Assembly: GCA_024644405.1 (NCBI GenBank)
Contig: JAHELC010000001.1
Location: 320,854 to 384,853 of the forward strand
Source of the DNA: Nitrospinaceae bacterium
Lineage (GTDB): Bacteria; Nitrospinota; Nitrospinia; Nitrospinales; Nitrospinaceae
DNA length: 64,000 nucleotides
Reading direction: 5' to 3'
The notes under the pieces are model-generated. The model was given only the letters and a program-made list of their open reading frames with translations. It did no database searches and had not been told where the DNA came from. Made by a program: the position numbers and the translations under genes. The first letter of the stretch is position 1; each line of letters starts with the position of its first letter. This document shows, one piece after another, positions 13,770 through 16,457 of the stretch.

Positions 13770-14012
13770 ATGTTTCAATATAAATTGAAACCCGAATTCC
13801 GCAAGCAATTGAAAGACCCGGACCTGTTCGAGAAGGGGATGGAAAAAGTGTACTGGGGACTGATCATCACCATGGCGGGAGTGGGGCTGATGCTGATCCT
13901 GTATTTCCACGATCCGGAAAAGGTCCTGCATCCCACCTGGGTGCTGTTCTCGGGTCTCGGCCTCGCCGCCTGGGGCGAATGGCAGAAATACAAGGGTAAG
14001 GGGAGCTTATAA
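13770..14012 (+). CDS. small two-span membrane protein, 80 aa
   Basis: Begins one base after the larE stop and is almost certainly co-translated with it. The N-terminus is charged (FRKQLKDPDLFEKGMEK), then two hydrophobic helices (about residues 28-46 and 54-69) flank HDPEKVLHP, with a basic tail (KYKGKGSL). No family recognised. Nothing links it to LarE chemistry except position. Confidence 0.65.
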   Translation: MFQYKLKPEFRKQLKDPDLFEKGMEKVYWGLIITMAGVGLMLILYFHDPEKVLHPTWVLFSGLGLAAWGEWQKYKGKGSL

Positions 14013-14022
14013 AACGACGACT

Positions 14023-14053
14023 GTGTCACCCTGAGCCTGTCGAAGGGCGACAC
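14023..14053. repeat. dispersed repeat unit A with GTGTC/GACAC ends
   Basis: Contains TCACCCTGAGCCTGTCGAAG bounded by GTGTC (14023-14027) and GACAC (14049-14053), so the unit can fold on itself. It is the same core as at 671-690 (opposite orientation) and 37063-37082. It lies directly after the membrane-protein gene. Confidence 0.75.
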
Positions 14054-14107
14054 AAAATTTCAAGTATCAGGCTGGACCCCCTTTTGCACCGGGCCTTGCC
14101 AGGCCAT

Positions 14108-14153
14108 AAAAAAAGGATCCTCTCTTTTCGCGCACGCTACTCAGAAAAGATCC
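14108..14153 (-). terminator. intrinsic terminator of the structured RNA
   Basis: On the minus strand GGATCTTTTC (14153-14144) pairs with GAAAA...GATCC (14129-14115, with a five-base bulge), followed by seven T residues (14114-14108). The orientation of the T-run fixes the direction of the RNA as leftward. Confidence 0.8.
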
Positions 14154-14320
14154 CGCGGGGTTGCCTTCTAATTCTTACTCTTTTTTACCAAACATTTCGG
14201 AGGCAACCCCAACCAGCTTATAGCCGATTAAACTTACTGTACTTCGGTTTAGCCCCACTTGCCTTCGGCTATAACAGGAGGCGGCCCTATTGTCTCCTCC
14301 CATAATAAATATGGGCCGCC
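14108..14320 (-). ncRNA. candidate structured non-coding RNA, about 190-210 nt
   Basis: Read on the minus strand, this stretch has consecutive strong stems: GGCGGCCC (14280-14287) with GGGCCGCC (14313-14320); a perfect 10-bp stem between 14218-14227 and 14265-14274 (TTATAGCCGA/TCGGCTATAA); and a perfect 10-bp stem between 14157-14166 and 14201-14210 (GGGGTTGCCT/AGGCAACCCC). It ends with an intrinsic terminator at 14108-14153. A TTGACA (14331-14336 reversed) lies 17 bases before CATATT (14308-14313 reversed), so transcription may begin near 14301, inside the first stem. It has no coding frame of note. It matches no RNA class I can name: not tmRNA, SRP RNA or RNase P by their known conserved motifs. 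Confidence 0.6.
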
Positions 14321-14382
14321 CCGCCACCCCTGTCAATATCCGGCTAAGCCAAAATCGAAAGGCGAAATAATCCTTTAAAAAT

Positions 14383-14613
14383 TTACTTTTTTTTCTTTTC
14401 CAAAGAACAGGTCAATTCTCCAGAAAGGTGAATACCTGAAGGGTTTATAACCCACAGTTTTCGGTCACCTTCTTTTTCTAACATCTGCTTAAGTTCCTCT
14501 TCAGAGAATTCATGGATAATTTCTCCTTTCCGCTTTATAACCAGTTTCAAGAGGCCGGGCGCTCCAGCTTTGGGTTCAATTGGACCTGTATTTATTACAC
14601 GGCATGGAGGCAT
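14383..14613 (-). CDS. hypothetical protein, 76 aa
   Basis: Possible small soluble protein just upstream of the structured RNA on the same strand. The sequence is protein-like, alternating beta and charged helix: LLKLVIKRKGEIIHEF, then EEELKQMLEKEGDRKLWVI and a basic lysine tail. The ribosome site is weak. No family recognised. It may be co-transcribed with the RNA, though that RNA has its own promoter candidate. Confidence 0.42.
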   Translation of the reverse strand: MPPCRVINTGPIEPKAGAPGLLKLVIKRKGEIIHEFSEEELKQMLEKEGDRKLWVINPSGIHLSGELTCSLEKKKK

Positions 14614-14863
14614 CAGCCCGGACGTCTCTTTTCCATCTTTTTTTAAACCCTATTATATTAACATCCTCTTTAAATTCGTTTCTGAACGTTGGCCCAAAAA
14701 AGTGTCACATCCAAACCCAATGAAACATGCTAGGAAAATAGCAAATTTCTTTACCATGAAAATGGGGTCAAGTCTCTTCTTGACTACATAAGGTTTTAAC
14801 TTTGGCAATTTCCTTTTTATCCTCAGAGAATAAGGACCAACCCACTACCCCTGTTAATAGCGA
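14614..14863. other. intergenic region with small REP-like hairpin
   Basis: About 250 bases with no gene. GTCAAG (14767-14772) and CTTGAC (14779-14784) form a hairpin inside AATGGGGTCAAG, a sequence style often seen in REP elements near RAYT transposases. No transposase is present here. A run of eight T residues lies just before the proC stop. Confidence 0.4.
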
Positions 14864-15727
14864 TTACTCCCCCTTTTTTTTAGGCGGGTGGTGGTTTTCG
14901 GAATTTTTGCCGAGCCATTGGGATCGCTTGGTGGCTTCTTCGACGGCGTTCATCAGGGTGGTGCGGAGGCCGCCTTCTTCCAGGGTATGCAGGCCGGAGA
15001 TGGTGGTGCCGCCGGGTGAGGTCACCTGGTCCTTCAACTCGCCGGGATGCTTGCCGCTTTCCAAGGCGAGTTTGGCGGAACCGAGAACGGTTTGCAGGGT
15101 GAGGATATTCGACACGTCGCGGGACAGGCCCATCTTGACGCCGGCGTCGGACAGGGCTTCAATGATCATGAAAATGTAGGCGGGTCCACTGCCGCTCAAC
15201 CCGGTCACCGCGTCGAGATGCGCCTCGTTCACGTCGACGGTTTTTCCGACGGCTTCAAAAATCCGGTGCGCCACTTTGAGATCGGCCGCGGACACCTTAT
15301 GACTGGCCGCCAGCGCGGTCACCCCCTCATGCACCAGCGCCGGGGTATTGGGCATGGTGCGCACCACGCCCAGTTTTTTCTTGCCGTCGGGACTGAGGCA
15401 TTCCGCAATGGTTTTGATGGGAATACCGGCGGCGATGGAGATAATCAGTTTTTTGTTGTCGACCTCATCGGCGATGCTTTCCAACACCTCTTTCATGGAC
15501 TGCGGCTTGACCGCCAGAAGAATAATGTCGCATTTTCTGGCCAGCTCGGGACTGTCGTCGGTGGTTTTGACGTGATACTCCTGCTGCAGCCATTCCCGCC
15601 GTACCGGACAGACGTCGGCGGCCATCAGGTTTTTGGCCTCGATGAATCCTGCGGACAGGAGTCCCTTGATCATGGCCTCGGCCATGTTGCCGCCCCCGAT
15701 GAACCCTATTTTTTTACTCTTCAGCAC
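14864..15727 (-). CDS. proC: ProC, pyrroline-5-carboxylate reductase
   Basis: Final enzyme of proline synthesis, reducing 1-pyrroline-5-carboxylate with NAD(P)H in the cytoplasm. The N-terminal Rossmann motif IGFIGGGNMAEAMIKG, the central VVRTMPNTPALVHEG, and the signature DAVTGLSGSGPAYIF and QVTSPGGTTISGLHTLEEGG are all present. I place the start at a GTG (15727) with GGAG eight bases before it; a longer frame to 15826 would run through the end of the preceding gene. The YggS-family gene ends 34 bp upstream, a very common pairing. Confidence 0.95.
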   Translation of the reverse strand: MLKSKKIGFIGGGNMAEAMIKGLLSAGFIEAKNLMAADVCPVRREWLQQEYHVKTTDDSPELARKCDIILLAVKPQSMKEVLESIADEVDNKKLIISIAAGIPIKTIAECLSPDGKKKLGVVRTMPNTPALVHEGVTALAASHKVSAADLKVAHRIFEAVGKTVDVNEAHLDAVTGLSGSGPAYIFMIIEALSDAGVKMGLSRDVSNILTLQTVLGSAKLALESGKHPGELKDQVTSPGGTTISGLHTLEEGGLRTTLMNAVEEATKRSQWLGKNSENHHPPKKKGE

Positions 15728-15761
15728 AACCGCGTCTCCTGCATCAATTAAAATTAAACAT

Positions 15762-16457
15762 TCAGTGGGCGTCCCGCGCCCCGAAAATGGCGGTGCCCAC
15801 CCGTACCCAGGTGGCGCCTTCTTCAATGGCCACTTCGAAATCGTTCGACATGCCCATGGACAATTCGTCCATCGTAATATTTTCGATATTCACCGCCCGC
15901 ATCCGGTCCCGTAATTTTCGCAACACGGCAAAGTGTTTGCGCGACTTCTCCGGATCCGGATCGAACGGGGGAATCGTCATCAACCCCCGGACTGAAATCC
16001 CATCCAGGGATACCAGCATGTCCAGCAGTTCTTCCAGATCACCGGGAGCCACCCCGGACTTGCTGGTTTCGCCGGACACGTTGACCTGGATCAACACCGG
16101 CGTGACCACATCATGCTTCAGGCTGTGCTGGTGGATTTCCTCAGCCAGTTCCGAATTATCGACCGAATGGATCAGTTCGAACAGGCCGGGAATATACTTT
16201 ACTTTATTCCTCTGCAAATGCCCAATGAAATGCCAGTGATAGGACTCCGTTCCCAGAGCCTCGATTTTGTCCCGGGCTTCCTGAACCTTATTTTCCCCCA
16301 ATACACAGCCTTCTATCCCAGCGACTTCGATGCGTTCAGCGGGAACAGTTTTGGATACCGCCACCAAACGAACTGCATCCGGCTCGCGTCCGGATTTTCG
16401 GGCAGCTTGCGCCATGCGTTCTTTAACGGCCACGAGGTTATCGGCAATCAAGGACAT
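15762..16457 (-). CDS. YggS-family PLP homeostasis protein
   Basis: Single-domain PLP-binding TIM-barrel protein (PLPBP/YggS family) thought to control pyridoxal phosphate and amino/keto acid balance; it has no firmly known catalytic activity. Motifs: RLVAVSKTVPAERI with the PLP lysine, GENKVQEARDK, WHFIGHLQRNKVKYI, VNVSGETSKSGV, LSMGMSNDFEVAIEEGATWV and VRVGTAIFG. I use the ATG at 16457 (MSLIADNLVAVKERM), which gives the usual family length. A longer frame to 16514 is open, but its first 19 residues are not conserved. It sits between the PII gene and proC on the same strand. Confidence 0.92.
   Translation of the reverse strand: MSLIADNLVAVKERMAQAARKSGREPDAVRLVAVSKTVPAERIEVAGIEGCVLGENKVQEARDKIEALGTESYHWHFIGHLQRNKVKYIPGLFELIHSVDNSELAEEIHQHSLKHDVVTPVLIQVNVSGETSKSGVAPGDLEELLDMLVSLDGISVRGLMTIPPFDPDPEKSRKHFAVLRKLRDRMRAVNIENITMDELSMGMSNDFEVAIEEGATWVRVGTAIFGARDAH

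Follow-up and report, generated by a model that had tools for sequence, protein, structure and literature searches.

The window analysed here, a stretch of 64,000 nucleotides from a Nitrospinaceae bacterium, very probably contains a genuine RNA gene on its minus strand, at approximately 14301-14108. Comparison with related genomes indicates that this gene very probably represents a previously uncatalogued sRNA family of Nitrospinota, whose members occur in the window's family and, within the same order, in part of another family. The predicted RNA is approximately 194 nt long, and the gene consists of a promoter, three hairpins (P1, P2 and P3) and an intrinsic terminator, in that order. An original prediction made from the letters of the window had proposed that a structured non-coding RNA of about 190 nt is encoded here by a free-standing gene read leftwards. 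Conservation, promoter position, covariation and the lack of a conserved ORF all argue for this proposal.

A sigma-70-type promoter, TTGACA-17-CATATT, lies on the minus strand at 14308-14336 (-35 box 14336-14331, 17-nt spacer, -10 box 14313-14308). It is correctly placed, as predicted, and its position puts the transcription start at approximately 14301. Across the 12 complete copies of the gene, the -35 box is TTGACA in 11 (TTAACA in genome G003) and the -10 box is CATATT or TATATT in 11 (CCTATT in G009); for G002 and G009 a script picked another -10 register, and the 17-nt spacer reading of these two copies was made by eye. In all 12 complete copies checked the -10 box ends 6-7 nt before the first base of P1, so that P1 starts at or beside the expected +1, and the sequences of these copies place a promoter of its own at the 5' end of the RNA. 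At the other end, the leftward terminator with seven T residues that had been predicted was found at 14108-14156 (minus strand) as a hairpin (14155-14115) followed by a T run (14114-14108). The same element recurs in G004, G007 and G002, and different intrinsic terminators are carried by G022, G009 and G011. A repeat occupies the terminator position in G001, and G003, G008 and G014 have no clear terminator. Terminators vary among members, yet come after P3 in most.

All three hairpins lie on the minus strand. The 5' hairpin P1 (GGGAGG...CCUCC; 14276-14303) was identified by alignment and covariation, with five pairs changed on both sides. P2 (14218-14274), identified by folding, alignment and the covariation count, has a perfect 10-bp stem, UUAUAGCCGA (14274-14265) and UCGGCUAUAA (14227-14218), enclosing a 37-nt purine-rich loop. 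P3 (14157-14210) is likewise closed by a perfect 10-bp stem, GGGGUUGCCU (14210-14201) and AGGCAACCCC (14166-14157), in which seven core pairs are invariant in both families; four upper pairs of the hairpin covary. The stems of P2 and P3 are the two perfect 10-bp stems of the original prediction, and their coordinates were verified. The 8-bp G/C stem that it had added, GGCGGCCC (14320-14313) with GGGCCGCC (14287-14280) on the minus strand, is present in the window as sequence, but does not stand as part of the RNA. It pairs promoter-overlapping sequence with the 3' side of P1, its 5' arm precedes the predicted start and reaches the -10 box, and the stem is not retained in relatives. Because one arm overlaps the promoter, the stem falls outside the transcript of the TTGACA/CATATT promoter. 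As judged from the sequences, this pairing is a coincidence and the real first stem is GGGAGG...CCUCC, from about the predicted +1.

The window's own fold is only moderately above shuffled controls, and the case for an RNA gene depends on comparison across genomes. The region 14301-14108 folds better than dinucleotide shuffles (z = -2.1, 5/200), which is modest taken alone. With the terminator removed, the window copy gives z = -1.5 and its homologues z = -2.6 to -5.8. The antisense strand folds about equally well, so the strand assignment rests on the promoter and terminator. We counted covariation in ten sequences over 30 pairs, where 95.2% of cells pair. The compensatory changes among relatives that the original prediction had named as support were observed as two-sided changes at 10 pairs, compared with 4.3 in shuffles (0/500 reach 10) and at most 3 in slid controls; the counting alignment was fitted to the structure and hence leans towards it, and the shuffles ignore the relatedness of the sequences. 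G-U cells number only 18 against 8 A-C cells, eight of the G-U cells coming from one pair. The signal sits in P1 (five pairs) and upper P3 (four pairs), and the conserved structure with compensatory change that this comparison shows supports these two hairpins. P2 varies hardly at all across the ten sequences, and the seven lower P3 pairs are the same in all of them, so covariation is thin there.

Outside this count, P2 has been rewritten in genus g2, where its arms are CCCCGGUG/CAUCGGGG in G010 and CCCCGGUG/CACCGGGG in G008. On these sequences, the replacement is extra support for a maintained hairpin, beyond the covariation count. The core of the P3 stem, GGGGUUGY/RCAACCCC, is unchanged even where P1 and P2 are rewritten. 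Its core pattern occurs about once per genome, at the sRNA locus, in 12 genomes and in 0/8 of the searched genomes of family f2; additional matches in G001 and G022 resemble chance. At about one occurrence per genome, P3 was rejected as a genome-wide repeat. Since the core is invariant and found about once per genome at the sRNA, the P3 sequence itself appears to be selected, which suggests selection on sequence and not on shape alone, and sequence-specific recognition.

Conservation in close relatives, which the original prediction had set as its own test, extends through the genus and beyond: the RNA is found, whole or in part, in 12 genomes, counting that of the window. A DNA search recovered the block in 6/8 genus genomes examined, with matches running from about the -35 box to the terminator; the two genomes without a match are 70-72% complete and have no full proC in the assembly. 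A covariance model built from seven sequences matched G009, from another genus of the same family (E 1.3e-10), and two genomes of the second family, G022 (7.8e-10) and G014 (E 0.002), with proC adjoining the match in all three. The genus-g2 genomes G010 and G008 show this promoter and order of three hairpins as well, in the region after proC. These copies were recognised first by that position; for G008 the model adds a weak match (E about 0.001). In G011 the P3-terminator end alone is present, at a contig edge and next to the small convergent gene that also neighbours the RNA in the window. When models R1 and R2 were run over 77 Nitrospinota genomes, matches were confined to the window's family and two genera of the second family, and the large family f2 was without the RNA; several f2 genomes have proC directly abutting the small convergent gene. 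Its absence from so large a family marks the RNA as dispensable in the phylum. Among 84,980 species scanned, a pattern search gave 8 matches, of which 7 are the sRNA in Nitrospinota-type records (one labelled Nitrospirae) and the eighth is a chance match in a Campylobacterales contig; this pattern requires an intact P2, and genus-g2-like copies elsewhere would escape it. The P2-P3 pattern had no match in the viral sequences of IMG/VR.

Upstream of the RNA and in the same direction lies proC (14864-15826, minus strand), encoding pyrroline-5-carboxylate reductase, which also stands beside the RNA in G004, G001, G003, G002, G007, G009, G022, G010, G008 and G014. The orthologous site is nearly always the 3' end of proC, and in relatives the RNA follows at a short distance. 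On the far side is a convergent gene for a small membrane-type protein (13770-14012, plus strand) with a weak, sub-threshold match to DUF6249; reading the sequences also placed this gene beyond the RNA in G004, G002, G022, G009, G014 and G011. Next comes an ATP-pyrophosphatase gene with Pfam matches to Asn_synthase and QueC, which we take to be larE-like. A cis-acting riboswitch or mRNA leader was rejected, as no co-directional gene follows the RNA and the next gene is convergent.

The surroundings of the gene show several rearrangements. In the window, an insert of approximately 500 bp (14360-14863) parts the RNA from proC. It contains a 124-codon lipoprotein-like frame on the minus strand, broken by two adjacent stops (TAA TAG) and absent from all 30 related genomes searched. 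Beside the proC stop is a degraded promoter-like copy, TATTAACAGGGGTAGTGGG, with a borderline score, which suggests a remnant of an older duplicate of the 5' region of the RNA. In G007 two RNA copies that differ slightly (L010 2366-2510 and L011 2351-2495) lie on either side of a Sel1-repeat-like gene and an Rhs-like C-terminal tail, both named by eye; contigs L010 and L011 overlap by 140 bp, which puts the copies probably about 2.5 kb apart. One of the two, a full copy with its own promoter, stands away from proC. Such copies may mark the RNA gene as a hot spot of recombination. Repeats were also seen past the terminator: 14028-14052 is a copy of a dispersed repeat, CCCTGAGCCTGTCGAAGGGCGACA, to which the repeat-like sequence filling the terminator position of G001 is related, and 14071-14106 (GGCCTGGCAAGGCCCGG...) has copies of 86-93% identity at several other sites in G002, G003, G006 and G009, and is probably a dispersed repeat as well.

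The original prediction had matched the RNA to no known class, and this agrees with a search of Rfam 15, which returned no family at gathering score; the best permissive matches (E 1.8 and 3.2) are chance. Literature searches for non-coding RNA in Nitrospina or Nitrospinae gave nothing relevant. No Hfq was found in the 26 genomes searched, and CsrA was found in 22 genomes. Taken together, we favour as the best explanation overall, with somewhat better than even confidence, an undescribed proC-linked sRNA that would act in trans without Hfq. Given that the RNA is real, we put a trans-acting base-pairing regulator at slightly less than an even chance.

The RNA is most likely a Hfq-independent regulatory sRNA with the type I 3'UTR layout. 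Type I 3'UTR-derived sRNAs are transcribed from a promoter of their own that is located inside an ORF or immediately behind it (PMC7821165), and MicL, DapZ, MicX, RsmW and ArgX have been reviewed as members of this class (PMC7821165, PMC9438474). The present RNA resembles them in being small and structured and in its promoter just after an ORF, an arrangement seen in the relatives, the window now having the insert before proC. Their 3' ends are shared with the mRNA, as we infer to be the case here. They differ in that several need Hfq, which was not found here, and no sequence kinship is known.

These observations allow us to propose how the element might work. The promoter downstream of proC would drive an RNA of about 194 nt, whose 5' stem-loop would open at the predicted first base. 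The element would in addition supply the proC mRNA with its 3' end, because most members show no evident terminator in the interval from proC to the RNA promoter. Hairpins at both ends would protect the RNA, which would act in trans without Hfq, using the purine-rich P2 loop or opened P3 strands to pair with mRNAs, and the sequence-invariant P3 stem would serve as the recognition element, either a pairing core or a protein site. As a tentative extension, GGGGUUGY/RCAACCCC in this Hfq-independent RNA might be recognised either by a dedicated RNA-binding protein or by one constant mRNA partner, and might connect the proC locus with another pathway. Targeting of larE by the P2 loop was rejected; larE ranked best of 49 local start regions, yet gave z from -2.0 to +1.0 in six genomes.

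A purely protein-binding RNA, in which P3 and perhaps P1 would titrate or scaffold a specific protein and the other hairpins merely protect, is in our view rather unlikely. It likens the RNA to CsrB/RsmY or 6S, each of which binds its own protein, and would account for a P3 core that stays constant where P1 and even P2 are rewritten; the near-consensus promoter, which suggests steady expression, also fits. CsrA, however, the obvious candidate, finds no support. The RNA is like CsrB, CsrC, RsmY and RsmZ in being a stem-loop array with its own promoter and terminator in a host that encodes CsrA, but lacks their excess of GGA: the window RNA has 2 such motifs against 4.1 in shuffles, and the count exceeds shuffles only in G008 and G010, so that a CsrA sponge was rejected. 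The GGAGGAG stretch originally put forward as a possible CsrA site is half of P1, where it is largely paired, and is replaced in G022, G014, G008 and G010. 6S RNA is comparable in length and likewise a free-standing gene. It differs in forming one long bubble-bearing hairpin, against three separate hairpins here. It was also rejected as an identity, with no RF00013 match at the locus and a genuine, Rfam-positive 6S RNA elsewhere in the genome (G000:C16:246471-246646). No further protein candidate emerged.

We consider it improbable that the hairpins simply terminate and protect the proC message, with the promoter-like sequence incidental. The short gap after proC in relatives and the lack of another evident terminator would suit such a 3' end, but the spacing of the -35 and -10 boxes from P1 is constant in every copy, genus g2 included, and three hairpins other than the terminator are conserved. 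In the window some 500 nt with the broken frame intervene before proC, and the second G007 copy stands away from proC with a promoter of its own. Still less probable is a DNA-level element, such as an integration hot spot or an inverted-repeat binding site. Inserts next to the promoter of the RNA in the window and separating the two G007 copies, together with highly conserved palindromic arms, point in that direction; against it, pairs co-change, G-U included, and promoter, start and terminator are laid out as a transcription unit. A short protein-coding gene from the ATG at 14303 (42 codons in the window, and 41 in G001) can be practically dismissed, as frames from ATG run to 42, 19, 15, 15, 41, 17 and 9 codons (9-19 codons in five copies from the same genus), the ATG is missing from five more divergent copies, and a +1 near 14301 would leave no room for a ribosome-binding site.

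Together these data support the preferred reading of a proC-linked regulatory sRNA, with conservation and anatomy strong and the function proposed. They also show that reading raw sequence can reveal a real RNA gene missing from Rfam. The dominant known marine nitrite oxidisers belong to Nitrospinota (PMC10839748), a phylum for which our literature searches found no study of regulatory RNA and whose searched genomes yielded no Hfq. A compact, conserved sRNA with a covariance model offers a concrete target for how such bacteria use sRNAs.
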